The notes beneath the pieces were generated by a model, which was not told the DNA's origin, searched no databases, and saw only the letters and a list, made by a program, of their open reading frames with translations. A program made the position numbers and the translations under genes. From positions 2,347,001-2,411,000 of the forward strand of contig NZ_CP151951.1 of NCBI RefSeq assembly GCF_038592985.1: DNA of 64,000 nt. Reading direction: 5' to 3'. Shown here in pieces: positions 1-12,075 of this stretch. Source of the DNA: Paenibacillus sp. FSL R10-2782. GTDB lineage: Bacteria > Bacillota > Bacilli > Paenibacillales > Paenibacillaceae. How positions within the stretch are numbered: position 1 is the first letter of the stretch; each line of letters starts with the position of its first letter.

Positions 1-226
1 CGGGACCACTGCTGCCAGCGCACACTGCAATGCTGCCGGTAAGATCAGCATCAGCCCCGGCTGCAAAGGCTGCCACTTCTTCGTGCCGCACATGAATCCA
101 TTCAATTTGACCGTCGCTTCGAATGGAATCGACCATATTATTTAAGGAATCTCCAACGATACCATAAATTCGCTTGACCCCTGCATTGATTAAAACTTCT
201 ACAATAGTATCTGCGATTGTCTTCAT
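1..226 (-). CDS. Pyruvate oxidase-like ThDP enzyme, N-terminal part (truncated by window edge)
   Basis: Only the first 75 residues lie in the window; the gene runs off the left edge. They fit the N-terminal ThDP-binding (PYR) domain of pyruvate oxidase (PoxB/YdaP): [14 protein letters not shown] near residue 16, then [14 protein letters not shown], which carries the conserved catalytic glutamate, and CAGSSGP. Family members decarboxylate pyruvate to acetate or acetyl phosphate with ThDP and FAD. The ATG at 226 has a close GGAGG-type ribosome site in its leader. It is divergent from uxaB. Other ThDP enzymes such as acetolactate synthase share the fold but match this stretch less well. Confidence 0.85.
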
Positions 227-498
227 AGATGTTCCTCCTGCCTAGTAAGTAACGTTATCCTGCCCGTGCTATCTTGCATCTATTCTAATTAGCCTTAACC
301 GTCCTAGCTCAGGTGCGAAACAGCGGGAAGATAATCATGGATCCGCGAAAGGTTGCATAGTTTATATGTTAACGTGTTCGTATTATTGTCATTAATATTT
401 TAAAAAACCAAAAATGTTGAGAAAACTATTTTGTTAACGTGTGCATTGTGATAAAATGTTGTTGAAATCATTAAGGTAATAATGGGAGGTTACTCCGG
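227..498. promoter_or_regulatory. Divergent control region with repeated TGTTAACGTGT operator-like motif
   Basis: The gap between the pyruvate-oxidase-like gene and uxaB contains two exact copies of TGTTAACGTGT, at 367-377 and 432-442, 65 bp apart in the same orientation. A third, related palindromic core TAACGTTATC lies at 250-259. The motif resembles half of the TGnTAACGTTAnCA sites used by LacI-family sugar regulators, which include hexuronate regulators. The copy at 432 sits next to a weak promoter-like TTGTTA/TAAAAT pair. Seen: the repeats. Inferred: binding by a LacI-type hexuronate repressor, which is not encoded in this window. Confidence 0.45.
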
Positions 499-1992
499 AT
501 GAAACAAGTAGATGAACTAGACCAACTAAACAGAAAAAGCTTCATTGTATCCAGTCCTTTTCCTGAAAGGGTGCTGCAATTTGGGGAAGGCAATTTCCTG
601 CGTGCTTTTGTAGATTGGCAATTCGATAAAATGAATAAGCAGGCAGAGTGGAATACAGGTGTCGTTATTGTGCAGCCACAGGCAGGAGGCATGGTGGAGA
701 AGCTCAACGAGCAGGGTGGCCTGTATACGGTTATTCTCGAAGGGATGAAGGATGGGCAGGCCGTGAAGGAGCATACTGTTGTGGAATGCGTCACCCGAGG
801 GCTTAACCCGTACGGCCCAGATTGGTCAGAATATGAGGCACTGATCCAAAAACCGGAGCTGCGCTTTGTCGTATCGAACACGACAGAGGCAGGAATTGCT
901 TACGGACCGGAGGATCGGCTGGAAGATCGCCCGCAAAAGAGCTTTCCAGGTAAGCTGGCTGCTTTGCTCTATAAGCGCTTTCAATTTTTCAATGGAGATC
1001 CAAGCAAGGGCCTGGTAATCATTCCATGCGAGCTGATCGACCGCAATGGAGATGCGCTCAAGGAAATTGTATTGAAATATGTAGATCAGTGGAAGCTTGG
1101 AGCTGAGTTTACATCCTGGCTGGAGGAAGCGAATACGTTCTGCAACAGCCTCGTGGATCGGATTGTGCCGGGTTATCCCAAGGACCGGATCACAGAGATT
1201 CAAGCAGAGTTAGGGTATAAGGACAGCCTGATCGTTGTCGGTGAACAGTATCACCTGTGGGTCATCGAAGGACCACAATGGCTCAAGGAAGAATTACCTG
1301 CTCATCTGGCTGGACTGAACGTACTGATCGTCGACGATATGGCGCCATACCGTACACGCAAGGTGCGTATTTTGAACGGGGCACATACGGCGCTTACGCC
1401 TGTCGCTTATTTATATGGTTTGGATACGGTAGGGCAGGCGGTCGAGCATGATGTCGTGGGTGCTTTTATCCAGTCACTCATTCGAGAAGAAGTGATTCCA
1501 ACGCTGGATTCCCCAGCAGCGGAATTGAATGTATACGCCGATGATGTCATTGAACGGTTTCATAATCCGTATGTGAGTCATTATGTCATGAGCATTGCAC
1601 TGAATTCCATATCCAAGTTCAAGACACGTAATTTGCCTTCCTTGCTTCAATATGTGGAGCAACATAAGGAATTACCTGTAAAAACGGTATTTTCGCTGGC
1701 ATCCTTATTCGTATTTTACGGGGGAAAGAGAGACGGCGAACCGATTGCCTTGGCAGACGAAGCGGAAGTGTTGACCGCATTTGGCGAGCTGTGGAGCGGA
1801 TATAACGGAACACTTGCCGGAGCGAAGCAATTAACGGCACAGATACTGAGCAAGCATACCTGGTGGGGGCAAGACCTAAACCAGATTGCAGGATTGGCTG
1901 AACAGACGGCACAGCATGTGTATGAGATTACAAGCAGGGGAATGAAGGATACGCTGGATTCTCTAACCGGGAACAGCGTACCCAGAGCATAA
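499..1992 (+). CDS. uxaB: Tagaturonate reductase (altronate oxidoreductase) UxaB
   Basis: The 497-residue protein belongs to the mannitol-dehydrogenase-like long-chain dehydrogenases. It reduces D-tagaturonate to D-altronate with NADH in cytosolic galacturonate catabolism. The N-terminus has the dinucleotide-binding stretch LQFGEGNFLRAFVDWQ (residues 26-41), and the catalytic half has the family signature VRILNGAHTALTP near residue 290. The ATG has GGGAGG about 10 nt upstream. uxaA follows after 17 nt, so the two consecutive pathway enzymes are co-transcribed, the same order as the end of the B. subtilis exu operon. uxaC, exuT and exuR are not next to it. Confidence 0.95.
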   Translation: MKQVDELDQLNRKSFIVSSPFPERVLQFGEGNFLRAFVDWQFDKMNKQAEWNTGVVIVQPQAGGMVEKLNEQGGLYTVILEGMKDGQAVKEHTVVECVTRGLNPYGPDWSEYEALIQKPELRFVVSNTTEAGIAYGPEDRLEDRPQKSFPGKLAALLYKRFQFFNGDPSKGLVIIPCELIDRNGDALKEIVLKYVDQWKLGAEFTSWLEEANTFCNSLVDRIVPGYPKDRITEIQAELGYKDSLIVVGEQYHLWVIEGPQWLKEELPAHLAGLNVLIVDDMAPYRTRKVRILNGAHTALTPVAYLYGLDTVGQAVEHDVVGAFIQSLIREEVIPTLDSPAAELNVYADDVIERFHNPYVSHYVMSIALNSISKFKTRNLPSLLQYVEQHKELPVKTVFSLASLFVFYGGKRDGEPIALADEAEVLTAFGELWSGYNGTLAGAKQLTAQILSKHTWWGQDLNQIAGLAEQTAQHVYEITSRGMKDTLDSLTGNSVPRA

Positions 1993-2009
1993 GCAAGGAG
2001 GAGACTGGA

Positions 2010-3509
2010 ATGCTGGAATTCATTCAAATTCATGATCAAGATAACGTGGCTGTTGCTTTACGTGATTACAAGCAGGGCGAGACGCTGGCGTGGGGAACGC
2101 ATGGAGAACAGCGCGTGATGTTGGCTGAGGATGTGGCGCGTGGGCATAAAATTGCATTGCAGAACATTCCTGAAGGTGGAAATGTGCTGAAATACGGATA
2201 TCCGATCGGCCATGCCATTCAGCCCATTCAGGCAGGGCAGCATGTGCATACGCATAATACGAAGACGAATCTGACGGGCGTGGAGGAGTACTCTTACAAG
2301 CCTAAGCCAGCGCCTCATTTATATGAACAGGAGAGTCGTACGTTTCAGGGTTATCGCCGAAAGGACGGCCGCGTGGGGATTCGCAATGAGTTGTGGATTG
2401 TGCCAACGGTCGGTTGTGTGAACGGGATTGCCGAGCTTATTTTAAACCGTTTCAAGCAGGAAGCAGGCGATATTTCGCCTTTTGAAAATGCACTTGTGCT
2501 CAAGCATAACTACGGCTGTTCCCAGTTGGGAGACGATCATGCATATACGCGCACGATTTTGATTGATGCGGTGAAGCATTCCAATGCGGGTGGCGTGCTG
2601 GTTCTTGGCTTAGGTTGCGAGAACAATGAAATGAAGGAGTTTAAGGAAGCCATCGGGGAATATGACCCGGAACGGGTGAAGTTTTTACTTTCCCAGGAAG
2701 TATCGGATGAAGTGGAGGAAGGGGTACGGCTGCTTCATGAAATTTATGCGGCTGTGCAGGAAGATCGGCGAGAGCCTGTACCTTTAGCTGAGCTGAATAT
2801 CGGGCTAAAATGCGGCGGCTCTGACGGCCTGTCCGGTATTACCGCCAATCCGCTGCTCGGTCGGCTGTCGGATTATATGGCTGCGCAGGGCGGAACGACG
2901 GTACTGACTGAGGTACCGGAAATGTTCGGCGCGGAGACGATTCTTATGGAACGTGCGGCAGACGAGGAAGTATTCGGCAAAATCGTGCATCTGATTAACG
3001 ATTTCAAGCAATATTTTCTGGATTACAAGCAGCCGGTATACGAAAATCCGTCGCCGGGCAACAAAGCAGGAGGCATCACGACACTGGAAGATAAATCGTT
3101 GGGCTGTACGCAAAAGTCCGGCTCTTCTACGGTCACCGATGTCATTCAGTACGGGGAGCGTCTCAAAACCAAGGGACTCAACTTGCTCAGCGCACCGGGG
3201 AACGATCTGGTTGCTTCTTCGGCGCTTGCGGCAGCGGGCTGCCAGCTCGTTATTTTCACAACTGGACGCGGTACGCCTTTCGGTTCCTTCGTTCCGACGA
3301 TGAAGGTTTCGACCAACTCGCCGCTTTATAAGGCCAAACCCCATTGGATCGACTACAATGCAGGTTCACTGGTGGAGGATGTTAGTATGGAGGATGCGCT
3401 CCGCAGCTTTGTGGATTACATTGTCGATGTAGCCAGCGGAACCTGGGTGAACAACGAGAAGAACAATTTCAGAGAGCTGGCTATTTTTAAAAACGGTGTT
3501 ACGTTGTAA
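2010..3509 (+). CDS. uxaA: Altronate dehydratase UxaA
   Basis: This 499-residue metal-dependent dehydratase converts D-altronate to 2-keto-3-deoxygluconate, the step after UxaB. The N-terminal SAF domain spans roughly residues 8-95 (VARGHKIALQNIPEG). The C-terminal catalytic domain contains KHNYGCSQLGDD, GLKCGGSDGLSGITANP and LGCTQKSGSSTVTDV, which hold the conserved cysteines and glycines of the UxaA/GarD family. Length is normal for the family. The start ATG follows AAGGAGGAG. It is the last gene of the uxaBA operon. Confidence 0.95.
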   Translation: MLEFIQIHDQDNVAVALRDYKQGETLAWGTHGEQRVMLAEDVARGHKIALQNIPEGGNVLKYGYPIGHAIQPIQAGQHVHTHNTKTNLTGVEEYSYKPKPAPHLYEQESRTFQGYRRKDGRVGIRNELWIVPTVGCVNGIAELILNRFKQEAGDISPFENALVLKHNYGCSQLGDDHAYTRTILIDAVKHSNAGGVLVLGLGCENNEMKEFKEAIGEYDPERVKFLLSQEVSDEVEEGVRLLHEIYAAVQEDRREPVPLAELNIGLKCGGSDGLSGITANPLLGRLSDYMAAQGGTTVLTEVPEMFGAETILMERAADEEVFGKIVHLINDFKQYFLDYKQPVYENPSPGNKAGGITTLEDKSLGCTQKSGSSTVTDVIQYGERLKTKGLNLLSAPGNDLVASSALAAAGCQLVIFTTGRGTPFGSFVPTMKVSTNSPLYKAKPHWIDYNAGSLVEDVSMEDALRSFVDYIVDVASGTWVNNEKNNFRELAIFKNGVTL

Positions 3510-3525
3510 TCCTTTACAACGAATG

Positions 3526-3554
3526 GGGAGGCGGAAGAATTCTGTCTCCCTTTT
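3526..3554 (+). terminator. Possible terminator of uxaBA
   Basis: A short GGGAG/CTCCC stem encloses the palindrome AGAATTCT and is followed by TTTT. The stem is only 5 bp, so this is a weak candidate, placed correctly 16 nt after the uxaA stop. Confidence 0.35.
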
Positions 3555-3639
3555 GATGTTTGTTTGTCTCTTAATAAATATGTTAGACTTACTGGAAAAG
3601 TTAACTTAATGAAATTTTACGAGTACGGGGGGATATGAA

Positions 3640-4086
3640 GTGCAGAATGAAATTGTTGCTTATCGGGAAGAAAATCATGATCAGCTCGTAGATATTTGGC
3701 ATCGGGCTGTACGTCAGACTCACACATTTTTGACGGAAGAAGACATTCAATTTTACCATCATATCGTGCGAAATGGTGCACTAAGAGAAGTTGAGATTTG
3801 GATGGAGTGGAACGAAAACCAAGATCCAATAGGGTTTATCGGACTGGACGGGATTAAAATAGAGATGTTATTCGTTGACCCTAAGCGACACGGACAGGGC
3901 ACAGGCAGCCGCTTAATCCGGCATGCTGAAAAAATAAAAGGCAAACGTCTCAAAGTGGACGTTAATGAGCAAAACGAACATGCACATGCTTTCTACAAAC
4001 ATTATGGCTTTGTACAAACAGGGCGATCCGCACTGGACGGATCAGGGCGAGCATTCCCTTTACTTCATTTGGAGAAAAACAAATGA
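3640..4086 (+). CDS. GNAT N-acetyltransferase, YjaB-like
   Basis: This 148-residue single-domain GNAT protein transfers acetyl groups from acetyl-CoA. It starts with GTG, preceded by GGGGGG about 6 nt upstream; no in-frame ATG fits better. The acetyl-CoA pyrophosphate loop is RHGQGTGSRLI (about residues 87-97), followed by VDVNEQNEHAHAFYKHYGF and a C-terminal PLLHL, the pattern of E. coli YjaB. The substrate cannot be read from sequence; YjaB has been linked to protein lysine or small-molecule acetylation. It is a single gene closed by a strong terminator. Confidence 0.85.
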   Translation: MQNEIVAYREENHDQLVDIWHRAVRQTHTFLTEEDIQFYHHIVRNGALREVEIWMEWNENQDPIGFIGLDGIKIEMLFVDPKRHGQGTGSRLIRHAEKIKGKRLKVDVNEQNEHAHAFYKHYGFVQTGRSALDGSGRAFPLLHLEKNK

Positions 4087-4110
4087 ACGATTGAAGTTTA
4101 CCAAATCCCT

Positions 4111-4146
4111 AAATCCCGTTTACCTCTGCGTAAATGGGATTTTTTC
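4111..4146 (+). terminator. Rho-independent terminator after the GNAT gene
   Basis: AAATCCC and GGGATTT pair around an inner TTTAC/GTAAA stem, and the 3' arm runs directly into TTTTTT. It lies 24 nt after the stop codon. Confidence 0.9.
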
Positions 4147-4170
4147 TCATAAAAAGCTTGCGACATAGTT

Positions 4171-4229
4171 GATTTTATGATATAACTTAATTAAGTAATA
4201 ATTACGTAATTAAGTTATATCATAAAATC
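4171..4229. repeat. Perfect 23-bp inverted repeat upstream of the TPR receptor gene
   Basis: Left arm 4171-4193 and right arm 4207-4229 are exact reverse complements (GATTTTATGATATAACTTAA continuing to TTA), separated by 13 nt that themselves contain TAAT/ATTA. No T-tract follows, so it is not a standard terminator. A promoter-like TTGCGA-17-TATAAC (4158-4186) runs into the left arm, so the repeat would overlap the -10 and the start of the leader. It could be a two-site operator or a leader hairpin, or the scar of a lost upstream segment. Confidence 0.85.
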
Positions 4230-4324
4230 ATTAAATCATATCATGAACGGCATTCAGTTCATTCTTTGGTTTGGTGAACTTTCTATTTCGTGAATATGAT
4301 AAGTCGGACAAGGAGGTGGGGAGG

Positions 4325-5182
4325 GTGGATGAACTTGTTCACTCCGACATCACAGATTTAGATACACTTGTTAATATGATTAAGCTGTCATTTTCGTTTA
4401 AAGACGGAGCCAATATGATTGCATTATGTGATCATCTGTACGACCGTGCCAGCCAGAAGTATCAGGAGTTACAGTTCTACAAAGCACACAAGAAACCCGT
4501 ACAATCCATACATACCAGACGTCCACTAGTATATTACTATGGATACAGTCATCTGATGAAAGGAATGGCCTTCCAGAAACAGGGCAAATATGATGAAGCC
4601 CGAGATTGCATCGAAAAGTATGCCGAATTGGGCTGGTTCAATGGTCTTGATCCTCACGGGGAAGCGGAAGTCGAGTATTATCGCCATGCAGCTAAAGCCA
4701 ATCAGTATGCTCTTGATATTTTGTCAGGCTGTTTCGAAGTGTTGCAGGAATATGTTCAATTTCTTCAGGACAATCCAGAAGAACTGTTACCGGGGCTTCT
4801 TTCCATCGTGGAGGGGGCATCCAGGCACGACTATTCTTTAGAGACTGTGCTAGAGCCCTTTGTTGAACAAATTGACGATTTCAAATATCTCGAAGAGCCT
4901 GTGAATGTGTCTTATTATTTTCGCTTTTGCTATCAACTGTCTCTCTATTACATCAAGCAGCAGCAGTTCACGGTTGCGCTGGACTATATTTTGCAATCCC
5001 TCATGCTGTCAGATACCCTGGGTATGGAACATGAGCATGAGTTCAGGAAGTGTACCGCCATATTTGAGATTTTCAGATCCCAAGCTACGGCAACACAGCA
5101 AGACCAATATATAACTATTTTAAAAGGAGTGTTAAAGGATGAAAAAATTGATTTCACAGCCTCTGTCGCTCAGTCTGTTTAG
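4325..5182 (+). CDS. TPR-type peptide receptor (RRNPP-like) lacking its DNA-binding domain
   Basis: The 285-residue, mostly helical protein resembles the TPR part of Paenibacillus RRNPP regulators (Rap, PlcR, AimR-like). TPR-like helices include YSHLMKGMAFQKQGKYDEAR and YQLSLYYIKQQQFTVALDYI. I place the start at GTG 4325, because AAGGAGG at 4310-4316 is spaced ideally; a TTG at 4271 is also open in frame. Full-length relatives carry an N-terminal XRE helix-turn-helix of about 60-100 residues. Here the upstream DNA has stops, a terminator and a palindrome, so that domain is absent. The 3' end overlaps a Phr-like propeptide ORF by 44 nt, the classic receptor-peptide arrangement. Without an HTH it may act by protein contact, as Rap does, or be a remnant or decoy. 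Confidence 0.7.
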   Translation: MDELVHSDITDLDTLVNMIKLSFSFKDGANMIALCDHLYDRASQKYQELQFYKAHKKPVQSIHTRRPLVYYYGYSHLMKGMAFQKQGKYDEARDCIEKYAELGWFNGLDPHGEAEVEYYRHAAKANQYALDILSGCFEVLQEYVQFLQDNPEELLPGLLSIVEGASRHDYSLETVLEPFVEQIDDFKYLEEPVNVSYYFRFCYQLSLYYIKQQQFTVALDYILQSLMLSDTLGMEHEHEFRKCTAIFEIFRSQATATQQDQYITILKGVLKDEKIDFTASVAQSV

Positions 5183-5246
5183 CTTGTTGGTGTTTGTTAC
5201 AGGTCATGACCTCATTTCCGTGTTTTATCATGGAGCAAATCATTAA
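5139..5246 (+). CDS. Putative Phr-like signalling propeptide, 35 aa
   Basis: This ORF overlaps the last 44 nt of the TPR receptor gene in another frame. The ATG has AGGAG about 10 nt upstream. The product starts MKKLISQ, continues with a hydrophobic run (LSLSLFSLLVFVTG) and ends in a polar tail GHDLISVFYHGANH. A short basic start, hydrophobic core and C-terminal tail is the build of exported propeptides that are cleaved to 5-10-residue signals and re-imported by oligopeptide permease. P. polymyxa has been reported to carry many AimR-like receptor-peptide pairs of this design. Seen: overlap, ribosome site, composition. Inferred: export, maturation and binding to the neighbouring receptor. Confidence 0.65.
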   Translation: MKKLISQPLSLSLFSLLVFVTGHDLISVFYHGANH

Positions 5247-5306
5247 TTGGTCAGAAGTAAGTAGAAAAAAGTTCTCCAGCAAGTAGATATTTGATGTAAA
5301 AGTATG

Positions 5307-5354
5307 CCAAATAGCAAGTAAGCTCATTAGGAATCGGGCTTGCTTGCTATTTGG
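5307..5354. terminator. Bidirectional hairpin between convergent genes
   Basis: CCAAATAGCAAG (5307-5318) pairs perfectly with CTTGCTATTTGG (5343-5354), and an inner AAGC/GCTT extends the stem to about 17 bp. It lies between the propeptide ORF and the convergent PH-domain gene. T-tracts are poor on both strands, so it is called from stem strength and position. Confidence 0.7.
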
Positions 5355-5370
5355 CGTCGTTATATGAAAA

Positions 5371-6261
5371 CTAAGCAGTTGTAGGCTTACGCAAAGCACC
5401 CTGCTCTGATGGATGCAATGAAATTTTCAACTGCTGGTAGGCCGGGAATGTTTCTTCTAAAAGGTACGGTGCACTTTTGAATGCCGCATCCAATGCCCGT
5501 AGAAAAGAACCGACGAACTGCTCTGGAGAAAAGTAAATGCTTTGCCCGATCATGTGAATGTGAAGCTCATTATGATCCCGGTTGCTCACCGAAAGCAATA
5601 ATCCCTTGCCCTGAAAACCCGTTTCGATTGCACGTACTTTATTTATGCTTGAGAGCAGCATTTCTGTTTTCAACGCACGACCCTGTTCCTCTATAAACAC
5701 GGAAATCAGGCGTTTATTCGTCACGATCATAATTTGGTTCCCCCGAAACGTATGGGTAAGATGCACAAAATCTTTATACACGCCAATCGTCTGCTCATGG
5801 GGAGAGATGATCCCCAAACGTACAAACTCAGCCAAGTCGGCGGCATCAGGCTCCTGATGATTTTTAATCCGTTTCTTGATACTAAATTGAATAGTGAGGA
5901 TACACAAAATAGTTATGACAAAAGAAGTCAGTCGGGCATGAAACACGAAGAACATCAGGGCGATAGAGATGCCTACTACCCATTGTGCCCAGGTGAGATA
6001 AAGAAGCTTTTGTTGAACTGTAAGGCGATAGTACCAGTGGCCCTTTCCTGGCTGATATTCCGAAGTAAACCGGGTCATACCGCGTAACAGCCTTAAAGCA
6101 TAGGCGGATAAAGCTGTTATCCCCAGGGAAAGAAACGTTAAAAGCCATTCTTGAGCCGCAATGCCGACTAAAGTACACAGGCCAAACAAAATGATTCCCG
6201 CCCAGCAGGCTACCTTTTTAATCCGTATCTGTTTTTGAATCGAACGAACCAATTCTTCCAT
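5371..6261 (-). CDS. Membrane protein with C-terminal bacterial PH-like domain
   Basis: The protein has 296 residues from the ATG at 6261, which follows AGGAGG; the frame is open further upstream but without a ribosome site. Two pairs of membrane helices lie near residues 20-60 (VACWAGIILFGLCTLVGIAA and the next segment) and 105-140 (LTWAQWVVGISIALMFFVF and the next). The C-terminal 130 residues look like a YokE-type PH domain: IGVYKDFVHLTHTFRGN, then IMIVTNKRLISVF. Such proteins are membrane-anchored with a cytosolic PH-like fold; no specific role is known. It is convergent with the receptor-peptide pair and probably monocistronic. Confidence 0.65.
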   Translation of the reverse strand: MEELVRSIQKQIRIKKVACWAGIILFGLCTLVGIAAQEWLLTFLSLGITALSAYALRLLRGMTRFTSEYQPGKGHWYYRLTVQQKLLYLTWAQWVVGISIALMFFVFHARLTSFVITILCILTIQFSIKKRIKNHQEPDAADLAEFVRLGIISPHEQTIGVYKDFVHLTHTFRGNQIMIVTNKRLISVFIEEQGRALKTEMLLSSINKVRAIETGFQGKGLLLSVSNRDHNELHIHMIGQSIYFSPEQFVGSFLRALDAAFKSAPYLLEETFPAYQQLKISLHPSEQGALRKPTTA

Positions 6262-6520
6262 TCTTCTTAATCCTCCTGATCTAGATGTATAGGTAATGAT
6301 TGGAATAATATATAGGCTTATCGTACCATTGGATAGTCTTCTTCGTAAATTAATAGATTGTAAAAAATTCGCAACAGGCCAAAAATATTCTGCGACTCGG
6401 AATGCTGCTACCTGAACTTTAGACACCAAAATCAAAAAAATCGGTACTACTCATGAACAGCAGAAGCCTCTAAAATAAGAAATGTAAGTGCTTACATTAT
6501 AGAGAAGGGAGGTCTGTCGT
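6262..6520. promoter_or_regulatory. Divergent intergenic region with cre-like palindrome at 6481-6498
   Basis: AATGTAAGTGCTTACATT (6481-6498) is an inverted repeat ending 22 nt before the permease start. The core TGTAAGTGCTTACA differs from the CcpA cre consensus TGWAANCGNTNWCA only at the central C. It would suit catabolite control of the sugar importer, or a site for a related LacI protein. The rest of the gap is AT-rich with no ORF I can support. Confidence 0.5.
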
Positions 6521-7480
6521 ATGAGTACAGAATGGAGGCCGCGACAACAGCCGCCGAGCCAACCCGGAAAAGGGAGAGCACTGGCTCGTAAATGGGTGCA
6601 ACAAAGACATTTGCAGACCATGGCGCTGTTAGGTGTGGTATGGATGATTATTTTTCATTACATTCCGATGTACGGCATTCTGATTGCCTTCAAGCATTTT
6701 GACATCATTGGCACCATATCAAGCGCACCTTGGGCGGGATTGGAGCATTTTCGGGCCTTTCTGGAGGATGATAACTTTTGGTATGTTGTCAAAAATACGC
6801 TGGGCATCAGTCTGCTCAAGCTGGCAATCGGGTTCCCGTTGCCCATTTTATTTGCTTTGTTCCTGAACGAAATCCGGTCTACGCGGTTTAAAAAGTCCAT
6901 TCAGACAATTTCGTATCTTCCTCATTTTTTATCATGGGTTATTCTTGGCGGGATCTTAACGACGTGGCTGGCAGATACCGGGATGATCAATCATCTGTTG
7001 CTGGCTTGGGGCTGGATCGAACAGCCAATCAGTTATTTGGCGGAGCCGAGCTACTTTTGGGCCATTGTCGTCAGCTCGGATATCTGGAAGGAGCTTGGAT
7101 GGTCGGCCATTATTTATTTGGCAGCCATGGCGGGTGTATCGACGGATATGTATGAAGCGGCGACCATTGACGGAGCTGGACGGTTTCAGAAAATGTGGTA
7201 CGTCACGCTTCCTGCGATCAAGGGCACGATATCCATTTTGTTTATTTTGGCGGTCAGCGGGATATTGAACTCTAACTTTGACCAGATTCTCGTATTACGT
7301 AACTCACTGAATGAAAGCGCAAGTAATGTTGTGGATATTTATGTATATCAGGTGGGCATACAGCAGGGGCGCTTCTCATATTCGACCGCAGTGGGGTTGC
7401 TGAAATCGGTTCTTGCTCTTATTTTGCTGATGATCGCCAATTCGGTCACCAAGCGGATTAATAATACATCCCTATTCTGA
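6521..7480 (+). CDS. Sugar ABC transporter permease, LplB type
   Basis: A 319-residue inner-membrane permease with about six helices. It belongs to the LplB/YtcP-like branch of carbohydrate (CUT1) permeases that is very common in Paenibacillus. The cytoplasmic EAA loop is YEAATIDGAGRFQKMWYVTLP (about residues 211-231), which docks an MsmX-type shared ATPase; no ATPase gene is present here, as usual for this family. GGGAGG lies 8 nt before the ATG. It is the first of five co-oriented genes: permease, permease, lipoprotein, kinase, regulator. The substrate is probably an oligosaccharide, not determinable from sequence. Confidence 0.9.
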   Translation: MSTEWRPRQQPPSQPGKGRALARKWVQQRHLQTMALLGVVWMIIFHYIPMYGILIAFKHFDIIGTISSAPWAGLEHFRAFLEDDNFWYVVKNTLGISLLKLAIGFPLPILFALFLNEIRSTRFKKSIQTISYLPHFLSWVILGGILTTWLADTGMINHLLLAWGWIEQPISYLAEPSYFWAIVVSSDIWKELGWSAIIYLAAMAGVSTDMYEAATIDGAGRFQKMWYVTLPAIKGTISILFILAVSGILNSNFDQILVLRNSLNESASNVVDIYVYQVGIQQGRFSYSTAVGLLKSVLALILLMIANSVTKRINNTSLF

Positions 7481-7494
7481 AGGAGGACGACTGC

Positions 7495-8382
7495 ATGCAG
7501 CTATTGCAACGCAAAACGACAGGCGAAGCGATATTCGATGTCGTGAACAGCGTCTTCATGCTGATCATATGTTTTGTAACGTTGTATCCGGTGTGGTACG
7601 TGCTGGTGAACTCCTTTAACGAAGGAGCAGACGCCATGCGGGGTGGTATTTACTGGTGGCCGAGAGTATTTAGTCTGGGCAGCTATCAGGCCGTGTTTGC
7701 GAACAACGGTATTATGACCGCGATGGGGGTGACCATTACCAAGACGGTAATCGGCACGATTGTACATGTGTTTTTTACCGCCATGATTGCATATGCATAT
7801 TCCCGTAGGGAGCTGATTGGGCGCAAGCTGTATATGCTGATCGGTACGATAACCCTGTTTTTCGGCGGGGGATTGATTCCGACGTATTTGCTGATACGTG
7901 ATCTCGGGCTGTTGGACAGCTTTTGGGTGTATATTATTCCGGCGATGTTCAGCTTTTTTGATCTTATAATTTTTATGGCTTTTTTCCGGGAGCTGCCGGA
8001 TGCATTGGAGGAAGCGGCGAAAATAGACGGGGCGAACGATTTCAGTATCTTTTGCCGGATTGTGCTTCCCGTATCCATGCCCGTGGTAGCGACGATTGCG
8101 CTTTTTCATGGGGTGTACCAGTGGAACGATTATTTTACCGGAATGATCTATATCAATAATACGGACCTTCAGCCGATTCAGACGTATTTGTACCGTGTTG
8201 TTGCCCAATCCAGCTCTAATCAGATGATGTCTGCTGCACCGGGGATTGTTGCCCAGTCCGTCACTTCGCAGTCGATCAAGCTGGCGACGATGGTTGTGAC
8301 GACACTACCGATTGTACTGGTATATCCTTTTCTGCAAAAATATTTCGTCAAGGGTCTGATGATCGGCTCGATCAAAGGATAG
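7495..8382 (+). CDS. Sugar ABC transporter permease, LplC type
   Basis: The 295-residue partner permease pairs with the LplB-type subunit 14 nt upstream. It has about six membrane helices; the EAA loop reads LEEAAKIDGANDFSIFCRIV (about residues 180-199). The start CAVWYVLVNSFNEG-like periplasmic loop (YPVWYVLVNSFNEG, residues 26-39) and the C-terminal KYFVKGLMIGSIKG are hallmarks of LplC/YtcP proteins. AGGAGG precedes the ATG. It works as a heterodimer with an external MsmX-like ATPase. Confidence 0.9.
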   Translation: MQLLQRKTTGEAIFDVVNSVFMLIICFVTLYPVWYVLVNSFNEGADAMRGGIYWWPRVFSLGSYQAVFANNGIMTAMGVTITKTVIGTIVHVFFTAMIAYAYSRRELIGRKLYMLIGTITLFFGGGLIPTYLLIRDLGLLDSFWVYIIPAMFSFFDLIIFMAFFRELPDALEEAAKIDGANDFSIFCRIVLPVSMPVVATIALFHGVYQWNDYFTGMIYINNTDLQPIQTYLYRVVAQSSSNQMMSAAPGIVAQSVTSQSIKLATMVVTTLPIVLVYPFLQKYFVKGLMIGSIKG

Positions 8383-8405
8383 CACATCATCCAAGGGGGA
8401 GATTT

Positions 8406-10055
8406 ATGATGAACATTCGCAAATGGCAGAAGGGGCTGCTGGCTGCCGTTCTGCTGGCGGGTTCGCTCGCAGCATGTACGTCCGGAGGAGGCGGAGCTGT
8501 CACGGAATTGAAGGACGAGATGACAAAGGCTACGGCAGATGCGCCGGGATGGAAGGCGGATACGGAGCCGATTACGTTTGACTGGTATTTGAACTTTTCC
8601 TGGTTCCCGAACAAGTGGGGCACGGATGAGACCTCGAGGTATGTTACGCAGAAAACCGGGGTCAGCGTCAATTTTATCGTACCGGCAGGGAATGAAAATG
8701 AGAAGCTTAATACAATGCTGGCCTCGGGCAAGCTGCCTGATTTTGTGACGCTCGGTTGGGGAGAGGATGCAGTCAAAAAAATGATCGAGGGCAAAATGGT
8801 GCTTCCACTCAACAAGCTGGCTGAGAAATACGATCCGTATTTGATTAAAATGGCTGACCCGGCGAAAATGTCCTGGTATCAGCAACCGGACGGAAATGTA
8901 TACGGCTATCCCAACGCTTCCTCTTCACCGCAGGATTATCAAAAATACGGGCAAAATTTTGTTTCTAACCAGACGTTTATGGTGCGGAAGGACATGTATG
9001 AGGCGATTGGTAAGCCGGATATGAGAACACCGGAAGGATTTTTGAAAGCGCTTCAAAAAGCGAAAGAGAAATTTCCTGATGTGAACGGTCAGCCGCTGAT
9101 CCCGATCGGGTTTCACGAATTTACGGACAACGGGAATTACTCTTTTGAAGACTATTTACTCAATTTTCTAGCCATTCCTCATGAAAAGGACGGAAAGCTG
9201 TACGACCGCCGTTCAGACGAAGAATATATTCGGTGGCTCAAAACCTTCCGTCAAGCGAATGAGCAGGGGCTGATCGCCAAGGATGTATTTATCGACAAGC
9301 GTCCGCAAATGGAGGAAAAGGTAGCACAGGGCCGGTATTTTGCTATGCTGTATCAGCGCTCCGACTTTGCTGGACAACAGGCTACATTGTATGCGAAGGA
9401 CCCGAACTCCGTCTATATCGCGGTCGATGGGCCTTCGAACAGCAAGCTGGATCCGCCTGCGCTGGCTGGACCGGGTATTTCTGGCTGGACGGTAACGCTC
9501 ATTTCCAAGGATGTCAAAGACAAGGAGCGTGCTATTGAATTCCTGACCTACCTGATTAGCGAGGAAGGGAACCGTGACCTGTACCTCGGGGAGCAGGGGA
9601 AGCTGTGGGAGACGGTTAACGGTAAGCCAGCCTTCAAGCCGGAGGTGCTGGAGCAGATGAACAAGGACCGCGCTGCTTTTGATAAAAAATATGGTGCTGC
9701 CTTCACCTTCTGGATGCTGATGAACACGAATATGAATTTGCAGTGGGCGCCGCCCAGCGTGGATCCATACAAGCAGCCGGAGGATTGGACGAAGGGCAAG
9801 ACAAAAGGCTTCTCCCAATACGACAACATCAAACCGACCGGAACATCGGCAGAGGGCATTGCGTCAGGACGGATAGACCAAATCTGGGGCAAGGCATTGC
9901 CAAAGCTGCTGCTGGCTTCCTCGGATGAAGAATTCGACCAATTGTTTGCCCGCTTTTTGGAAGATCGCAGAAAAGCCGGATATGACAAGGTCATGGCTTA
10001 TCAGCAAAAGGCCTATGAAGAAAACCTCAAGAAAATAGAGCAGTTCACCAAATGA
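8406..10055 (+). CDS. Extracellular sugar-binding lipoprotein of the LplBC importer
   Basis: The 549-residue solute-binding protein has a lipoprotein signal peptide: basic start (MNIRKWQK), hydrophobic core and lipobox SLAAC with the lipidated cysteine at residue 24. Length and motifs (ITFDWYLNFSWFPNKWGTDE, then FVTLGWGED) fit the large LplA/YtcQ-type binding proteins paired with LplB/LplC permeases. It captures substrate outside the membrane. It is 23 nt after the permease gene and 31 nt before the sensor kinase, so expression is probably linked. The ligand is unknown; no glycosidase adjoins the operon to hint at it. Confidence 0.9.
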   Translation: MMNIRKWQKGLLAAVLLAGSLAACTSGGGGAVTELKDEMTKATADAPGWKADTEPITFDWYLNFSWFPNKWGTDETSRYVTQKTGVSVNFIVPAGNENEKLNTMLASGKLPDFVTLGWGEDAVKKMIEGKMVLPLNKLAEKYDPYLIKMADPAKMSWYQQPDGNVYGYPNASSSPQDYQKYGQNFVSNQTFMVRKDMYEAIGKPDMRTPEGFLKALQKAKEKFPDVNGQPLIPIGFHEFTDNGNYSFEDYLLNFLAIPHEKDGKLYDRRSDEEYIRWLKTFRQANEQGLIAKDVFIDKRPQMEEKVAQGRYFAMLYQRSDFAGQQATLYAKDPNSVYIAVDGPSNSKLDPPALAGPGISGWTVTLISKDVKDKERAIEFLTYLISEEGNRDLYLGEQGKLWETVNGKPAFKPEVLEQMNKDRAAFDKKYGAAFTFWMLMNTNMNLQWAPPSVDPYKQPEDWTKGKTKGFSQYDNIKPTGTSAEGIASGRIDQIWGKALPKLLLASSDEEFDQLFARFLEDRRKAGYDKVMAYQQKAYEENLKKIEQFTK

Positions 10056-10086
10056 TCTGATTTATTGAACCTAAGGATGTGATTTC

Positions 10087-12075
10087 ATGCCAAGCCGCAG
10101 ACTTCCACGAATAAAAAGACCGCTGCTCCGCGAAGTATGGCGGTGGCTGACGGATACGGCGGATCGGCTTGGTGGCTGCTCTCTTCAAGTCAAGCTCATT
10201 GTCGCATATATCGCCGTTATTTTAATCCCGGTTGTATTATTCTCGCTATATACCTTTCACCAGCTATACGAGAACACCATGCAAGAGATTACCGCCCAAA
10301 ATCAGTATGTGCTGGATACAGAGCTGGCCCATATTCACAGCAATATGGAAATTATGGAGCGAACCGCACAGCTTGCGATTTCAGATCGCAACGTACTCCG
10401 TTATTTGACTGAGGAACGTGAAATGAGCAGTGATGAGCTGGTGCAATTCAACATGAACGTGTTTCCGAATTTGCAGCATTTGCTGTACAGCAATCCCAAT
10501 GTGGCGAATATTCGGCTGTATACGAGCAATCCACACGTACGCGAAATATGGCCGATGATTTTCAACGAGTCACGATTACCTATGGTTTCCTGGCTGAAAA
10601 CGGCTCAACATCAGCAAGGAAAAATCTGGTGGGAAATGTATCAGGGACCGAAAAGCTTGCTTCGAGGGCAAGCACGACAGGAAAGCGAAACGGTGCAGTA
10701 TATGGCTTTGCTGCGTGAAATTCAGGCTGTAGGAAGTGCTGGAGAAAGACACGCGGGCTTGGTGGAGACGAACATGAGGCTGGAGTTATTTTCGCCCAGA
10801 GTATTTGATACTCGGCAAGATAACCGTGCATCGTCACAAATGCTCATATGGGGCGGCAGCGATTCCAGCCCATGGAACAGCGGCAAGCCCATGTCTTTTA
10901 ACGATATAGCAACAGCCTCCCCTCTATCCGATGCGCTTCCCATACCTGAGTCCAATTTGCGCCATCTGTTTCAGTCCCGCGTTCAGGGACCGGGTGGTGC
11001 TTTTGATTTTACTTATGAAAATAAGCCTTATCTCGGTCTGTACGGTTCTATAGAAGGGCTGGACGCTTATCTGCTAAACGTGGTAGCGCTGGACGGTTCG
11101 CTGGGTGATCTCCGTCAGAAGCGCAATGCTATGCTGCTTATTATTTGTGTACTGATTTTGTTGATGTCACTTATTTCCTACACCTTGCACGCTTTTATCC
11201 TCAAACAGCTTCATACACTGCGGGAATCCATGAAGAAGGTACAGCAAGACGGAGACTTTCAGCTTCGGATTCCCGTGTATGGACGTGGAGAGGTGGCGGA
11301 GCTGGCCCTGTATTTCCGCAGTCTGCTGAGTCAGATTAACGGGCTTATTGCTGAGGCAGTACACAAGCAGGCTGCTGCTCAGGAGGCTGAATTGCAAGCA
11401 CTCAAGCATCAAATTGATTCCCATTTTCTTTATAATACGCTGGAAAATTTAAAAATGATGGCAGAGCTGGAGCGTCAGTATCCGTTGTCGGATGCCTTGA
11501 CCTCTCTTGGCTCGATGATGCGTTACAATCTCCAATGGTCCGGTCCATATGTTGCGCTGCGGGACGAAATCCGCCATATTCAGCATTATGTGGCTATTAT
11601 GAACATTCGCCATGACAACCAAATTGGTCTGGAGGTTCATCTGCCGCCAGCGTATATGGAGCAGGAAGTGCTGAAAATGTCGCTACAGCCTGTGGTGGAA
11701 AATGCCATCAAGCACGGCTGGAGTGCATTACACAATGAAATGGATGGATGGGAACAGCCTGAACGGACATTCAGCATTACCATAGAAGCCTGCATGATGC
11801 AGGAACGATTTGAGCTGCGCATTCGGGATAATGGAGCAGGGATACTCGAGGAGAGAAGACAAGACATTATGTCAGGTCTGGGACAAAAAGATATGGATTC
11901 TCGTGAGTCGGGAGTGAATGGAGGGATCGGTTTGCGCAATGTGCATCGTCGCCTGAGTATGCATTATGGCGTCGGGTACGGCATCCGACTGGACAGTATC
12001 CTCGGACAATCGACGACAGTGACCCTGATTTTGCCCAGACGTCACATGATGAGAGGGGTGGACAATGGCGACTAG
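10087..12075 (+). CDS. Sensor histidine kinase, YesM family
   Basis: A 662-residue membrane kinase. One helix near residues 36-57 and one near 345-368 flank a roughly 290-residue extracellular sensor region; a HAMP linker follows. The phosphoacceptor is H446 in QIDSHFLYNTLENL, where the usual NPHFLYN of this family has become DSHFLYN. The ATP-binding domain shows VVENAIKHGW and RDNGAGI. In this family the kinase senses sugar or the loaded binding protein and phosphorylates a YesN-type regulator. The gene overlaps the response regulator by 11 nt, so translation is coupled. Confidence 0.92.
   Translation: MPSRRLPRIKRPLLREVWRWLTDTADRLGGCSLQVKLIVAYIAVILIPVVLFSLYTFHQLYENTMQEITAQNQYVLDTELAHIHSNMEIMERTAQLAISDRNVLRYLTEEREMSSDELVQFNMNVFPNLQHLLYSNPNVANIRLYTSNPHVREIWPMIFNESRLPMVSWLKTAQHQQGKIWWEMYQGPKSLLRGQARQESETVQYMALLREIQAVGSAGERHAGLVETNMRLELFSPRVFDTRQDNRASSQMLIWGGSDSSPWNSGKPMSFNDIATASPLSDALPIPESNLRHLFQSRVQGPGGAFDFTYENKPYLGLYGSIEGLDAYLLNVVALDGSLGDLRQKRNAMLLIICVLILLMSLISYTLHAFILKQLHTLRESMKKVQQDGDFQLRIPVYGRGEVAELALYFRSLLSQINGLIAEAVHKQAAAQEAELQALKHQIDSHFLYNTLENLKMMAELERQYPLSDALTSLGSMMRYNLQWSGPYVALRDEIRHIQHYVAIMNIRHDNQIGLEVHLPPAYMEQEVLKMSLQPVVENAIKHGWSALHNEMDGWEQPERTFSITIEACMMQERFELRIRDNGAGILEERRQDIMSGLGQKDMDSRESGVNGGIGLRNVHRRLSMHYGVGYGIRLDSILGQSTTVTLILPRRHMMRGVDNGD

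Follow-up and report, generated by a model that had tools for sequence, protein, structure and literature searches.

A receptor-propeptide pair of the Alo type without a helix-turn-helix domain in Paenibacillus, and the clade of receptors to which it belongs

The receptor and propeptide genes

The window analyzed here is a stretch of 64,000 nt from Paenibacillus sp. FSL R10-2782 (contig NZ_CP151951.1, positions 2347001-2411000), whose 5.60 Mb genome consists of one contig. Near its left end lie two overlapping genes, for a tetratricopeptide repeat (TPR) receptor related to the AloR receptors of Paenibacillus and for a small propeptide, and the receptor has no helix-turn-helix (HTH) domain. A previous sequence-only reading of this DNA had proposed such a pair acting through protein contact; the pair was confirmed, and since the receptor has no HTH, any action of it must go through protein contact. 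The parts of the pair are as follows.

4310-4316, plus strand: Shine-Dalgarno sequence AAGGAGG of the receptor gene, with the GTG eight bases further on
4325-5182, plus strand: HTH-less Alo-type TPR receptor gene, 285 amino acids (aa), GTG start at 4325, stop at 5180-5182
5124-5129, plus strand: Shine-Dalgarno sequence AAGGAG of the propeptide gene
5139-5246, plus strand: propeptide open reading frame (ORF), 35 aa (MKKLISQPLSLSLFSLLVFVTGHDLISVFYHGANH), ATG at 5139, stop at 5244-5246, overlapping the last 44 nt of the receptor gene
5223-5243, plus strand: codons of the tail FYHGANH, within which the mature pheromone is predicted to lie behind a putative cleavage site

The receptor was aligned with 11 orthologs (12 sequences with that of the window). 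AAGGAGG and the GTG at 4325, already chosen as the start by the sequence-only reading, were invariant in all 12 aligned upstream regions, and an alternative GTG at 4316 was missing in two of them (L026 and L027). In four orthologs (L025, L027, L029 and L030) a stop closes the frame 8 codons before the GTG, so that no upstream start is able to restore an HTH. A profile built from the HTH of the genome's own full-length AloR-type receptors detected no HTH in window positions 1-12000 at E≤10. The upstream stops, the invariant GTG and AAGGAGG, and this search together ruled out a start further upstream that would add an HTH, and the search likewise excluded an HTH encoded nearby in another frame or on the opposite strand. 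The receptor gene is under purifying selection, with a pooled ratio of nonsynonymous to synonymous substitution rates (dN/dS) of 0.118 (Nei-Gojobori, own script, 11 sequences).

The AlphaFold2 model of the receptor is a confident, all-helical solenoid (pLDDT, predicted local distance difference test, 89.0; pTM, predicted template modelling score, 0.83) in which 11 residues stand before the first long hairpin, and its TPR match of 26.5 bits falls just under the Pfam cut-off of 27. In an alignment with the full-length AloR-type paralogs that its own genome encodes (22-38% identity), the receptor could be matched throughout its C-terminal half, and its first residues corresponded to the hairpin following the HTH and three further hairpins. 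Besides the HTH, the receptor is therefore without the three N-terminal hairpins of the AloR solenoid (about 105 residues), an absence that the earlier reading had missed. No RapH_N match was found in the protein at E≤1 (Pfam), and by structure comparison the model aligns with Rap from about Rap residue 94 onward. Neither the window protein nor the profile of A1 gave a sequence match to solved RRNPP structures at E≤1, NCBIfam and PHROGs yielded no useful match, and AimR was not among the matches listed in the VIA list, which excludes nothing. As a TPR receptor with a leader-bearing propeptide ORF of predicted export, the pair falls within the RRNPPA superfamily in the wide sense.

All 12 genomes have the propeptide ORF whole and with AGGAG ahead of its ATG; the offset is -41 in 11 of them and -1 in L024. 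Two more named genomes (L092 and L093) likewise carry it unbroken, so that none of the 14 showed a frameshift in it. Its leader is hydrophobic by hydropathy window, in agreement with the published description of AloP as a downstream leader-bearing ORF of 32-50 aa. Pooled dN/dS, calculated as above for 12 sequences, was 0.083 for the whole propeptide, 0.053 for codons 16-35, which lie outside the overlap, and 0.035 for the last 14 codons, revealing strong purifying selection on the tail. Ungapped identity was 89% in codons 16-35 versus 44% in the 40 nt past the stop. The conserved offset, the selection outside the overlap and the drop in identity past the stop demonstrate that the ORF is not a chance frame. 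The tail FYHGANH was invariant in the 12 sequences and the two further genomes; among 60 genomes of the genus, the exact sequence was encoded in 12, once per genome and at the receptor locus, and in none of the other 48. This private tail does not favor the earlier suggestion that the receptor titrates peptides of sister systems. The literal string YHGANH was not found in a literature text search. In L024 (G035), a 1-nt insertion in the overlap, either real or a sequencing error, alters and shortens the receptor C-end and leaves the propeptide whole.

A clade of HTH-less receptors

The missing HTH is neither an oddity nor a loss confined to this locus; the receptor belongs to an old clade of HTH-less receptors. 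The receptor had matches at E≤1e-30 in 48 of the 60 genus genomes, 47 of them with an open frame of 250-390 aa and one (G010) with 217, the presence of an HTH being checked in the fetched loci only; none of the 14 short receptors fetched from three further genera of the same family had an HTH match. The 54 homologous proteins found at E≤1e-40 were 172-301 aa long and none exceeded 301 aa, though the search admitted lengths up to about 499 aa, so that no homolog fused in frame to an HTH came to light. In public records 30 of these 54 are named "DNA-binding protein" (41 have any name), apparently by carry-over from full-length relatives, and such names would mislead researchers on HTH-less receptors.

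From the fetched loci we collected 85 HTH-less receptors, all distinct proteins, drawn from the best matches instead of at random; the named copies L091-L099 stand outside this count. A tree was calculated from 68 of them and 22 HTH-bearing AloR relatives, representing several genera of one family; the other 17 HTH-less rows were left out as near copies. Also dropped were two partial rows, from L007 and L120, which end where the locus ends, and L064b (HTH-bearing and C-terminally truncated). HTH-less and HTH-bearing receptors were split by one branch with a support of 100/99, present in 100% of 200 bootstrap trees, showing that the HTH-less receptors have a single origin within the Alo family. 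The occurrence of the HTH in other RRNPP receptors suggests that the direction was loss and not gain. A leader-bearing propeptide was found at the 3′ end of 58 of the 85 HTH-less receptors in a search that did not require the residues HG, and yet HG was present in all 58 tails (typically NHGVNG, NHGMNH, LHGAEH or DHGSEYTGR); among HTH-bearing receptors, 15 of 22 had an ORF of this kind, and HG was present in 9 of the 15 tails. We are highly confident that a clade of HTH-less, propeptide-paired Alo receptors exists. The propeptides of L063, L065 and L066 carry the pheromone motif doubled (NNHGANSFQPNNHGANY and kin). In the host genome, 21 places are related to the receptor, namely 14 full-length genes (in one of which, L012, the open frame holds the HTH only in part), four short ones and three AloR-type fragments that are probable pseudogenes (L019, L020 and L021).

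All Alo receptors are said to contain an N-terminal HTH in the text of the survey that defined them, from which receptors shorter than 250 aa were discarded (Voichek et al. 2020, PMC7425212). Paenibacillus terrae NRRL B-30644, a strain of that survey, has the locus intact with a receptor of 284 aa; since the filter would admit a receptor of this size, that survey may already count the pair among its Alo systems. The window pair shares with AloR-AloP a homologous C-terminal TPR region, as judged against the host genome's own full-length relatives, a propeptide ORF with a hydrophobic leader at or overlapping the receptor 3′ end, and the HG tail, and differs in having neither the HTH nor the three additional hairpins. 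The comparison with AimR-like pairs in the earlier reading was corrected, the relatives being AloR of Paenibacillus and not phage AimR: in AimR-AimP a small propeptide gene likewise follows the receptor, but AimR has an HTH and a phage context, whereas the near neighbors listed at the window locus are sugar-acid, ABC-transport and histidine-kinase genes. In the Rap-Phr systems of Bacillus subtilis, the propeptide gene borders on or overlaps that of the receptor, as it does here, and the receptor has no HTH either; unlike Rap, the window receptor has no N-terminal three-helix bundle, and its HTH-less state arose separately within the Alo family. This bundle is described as common to Rap and NprR and implicated in protein-protein interaction (PMC9765709). 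PlcR-PapR and NprR-NprX share the TPR-domain fold, but PlcR and NprR both carry an HTH according to the same text.

Rap appears as the only HTH-less RRNPPA member in the text of a 2022 analysis, and a 2023 survey treats AloR as one cluster, with no remark on HTH-less members found in the part of its text consulted (PMC10075063). A description of an HTH-less Alo receptor class was not found in the literature covered, the main text of mostly non-subscription articles. The HTH-less Alo branch would then be the second HTH-less RRNPPA lineage besides Rap, without Rap's three-helix bundle, and the loss of DNA binding would have occurred more than once in the superfamily.

Probable operator and candidate partner

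The following features lie upstream of the receptor gene.

4111-4142, plus strand: terminator-like hairpin between an upstream GNAT gene and the receptor gene, weak (1 found versus 0.7 expected by shuffles)
4158-4186, plus strand: probable promoter, read by eye, with -35 TTGCGA (4158-4163), a 17-nt spacer and -10 TATAAC (4181-4186)
4170-4230, no strand: palindrome and probable operator, with arms of 30 nt and 97% complementarity between them in the window
4182-4193 and 4204-4215: palindrome half-sites ATAACTTAATTA and ACGTAATTAAGT, both invariant in 12/12

The -10 hexamer, also invariant in the 12 sequences, runs into the palindrome; a consensus promoter scan did not list this promoter. Searched with a 31-nt pattern (≤3 mismatches) and with a gapped half-site pattern, the palindrome occurred once in the host genome, which ruled out an operator common to other genes of that genome. 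It was not found before other HTH-less receptors, 15 of which are preceded by different, mostly shorter inverted repeats. A conserved operator-like site ahead of a receptor that has no HTH to bind DNA calls for another, DNA-binding protein. Downstream of the propeptide, a minus-strand ORF (5371-6435) has a relative in 11 of the 12 ortholog loci and gave no Pfam match at E≤0.01 in the part scanned (5374-6258).

We consider it about an even bet (probability roughly 0.48) that the predicted Alo-family cassette is a pheromone-controlled protein-contact switch with a separate DNA-binding regulator. The propeptide would be secreted and its tail ending in FYHGANH trimmed off; the trimmed tail would re-enter the cell and bind the TPR groove of the receptor, which in its peptide-bound state would grip or release the regulator. 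The most likely partner would be a stand-alone Xre/HTH_3 transcription factor, handled in an anti-repressor-like manner as RcopLS20, a repressor of the Xre type, is by RappLS20. The RappLS20 protein is reported to complex with RcopLS20 until its peptide Phr* intervenes (PMC7430634), so that an HTH-less, peptide-controlled TPR receptor works through a separate repressor in the mode proposed for the window receptor; on the other hand, Rap has an N-terminal effector domain, and no repressor gene adjoins the window locus.

We favor an Xre partner on account of the Xre genes that lie divergently next to three lineages of HTH-less receptors. An opposite-strand stand-alone Xre gene was located within 900 nt, divergently upstream, for 25 of the 85 HTH-less receptors, and two of these Xre proteins checked in Pfam both matched HTH_3. 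Only 2 of the 22 HTH-bearing receptors have such a neighbor, and it is one gene beside both, lying divergently next to L004 (the host's full-length receptor best matching that of the window) and also beside L007. In the host genome, two of the four HTH-less receptors have an Xre neighbor (about 0.001 by a rough, after-the-fact binomial). Of the 25 Xre-linked receptors, 22 form one clade from two genera without a propeptide by the criteria used, with 21 members in a first tree of 87 rows, 15 of which were HTH-bearing, and 12, including L111, at 100/100 in the 68+22 tree; the remaining three (L005, L059 and L065) have propeptides. Neither the window locus nor its 11 orthologs have a stand-alone Xre neighbor within this distance, and the regulator that would serve the window locus is not adjacent to the receptor.

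Other explanations of the missing HTH were weighed against this switch. The receptor might sequester or dephosphorylate a response regulator, for example of the sporulation relay, with its own peptide relieving the effect. The lack of an HTH is compatible with this, the niche could be vacant since no RapH_N domain was found in the host genome or in 11 others of the genus, and the full-length system Alo13 is reported to act on a spo0E-like gene (PMC7425212). However, the three-helix bundle common to Rap and NprR is absent from the window receptor, and we regard this explanation as unlikely; the Rap-like action suggested by the sequence-only reading thus holds loosely, as action without DNA, and not in the sense of Rap's own effector part. 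The 14 full-length AloR-like genes beside four short ones in the host genome, together with the alignable C-terminal halves, would suit a short receptor that silences full-length AloRs of the same cell in mixed dimers under control of its own peptide. Identities of 22-38% to those paralogs, a hypothetical dimer interface and a locus-private tail, which suggests an output of its own, make such a dominant-negative role quite unlikely.

A bare solenoid without a recognizable effector part could also merely titrate its own or sister-system peptides, but no other place in the genome encodes the exact tail and the conserved operator-like palindrome at the probable promoter suggests a regulated output, so that we hold a peptide sink to be improbable. 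That the locus is a decaying, functionless remnant of a full-length AloR locus is scarcely credible: fragments of the AloR type do occur in the host genome (L019-L021), yet receptor and propeptide are under selection (0.118 and, outside the overlap, 0.053), the ribosome site is invariant and one architecture is kept throughout the clade.

Returning to the contact switch, a broader and more doubtful proposition is that of a "split Alo" class, a second, independent RRNPP lineage without DNA binding in Paenibacillus and sister genera, whose bare TPR solenoids, with their own HG-pheromone or by eavesdropping, might control stand-alone Xre repressors; each genus would then have dozens of private signals feeding separate DNA-binding proteins. 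Alo systems have so far been read as transcription factors contacting DNA themselves; the existence of a large HTH-less branch that has pheromones of its own means that much of Paenibacillus peptide signaling must run through protein partners, for which the divergent Xre genes are testable candidates.

In the propeptide-less Xre-linked clade (L002, L035-L050, L069, L070, L072, L075 and L111), the Xre gene lies divergently upstream in 22 of 22 loci, and a related gene lies downstream in 14, at about 190 nt in 12 and at about 1180 nt in two. One of these downstream genes was checked and matched WXG100, and it is possible that the receptor of this clade is an eavesdropper whose gene neighbors that of a type VII secretion substrate.
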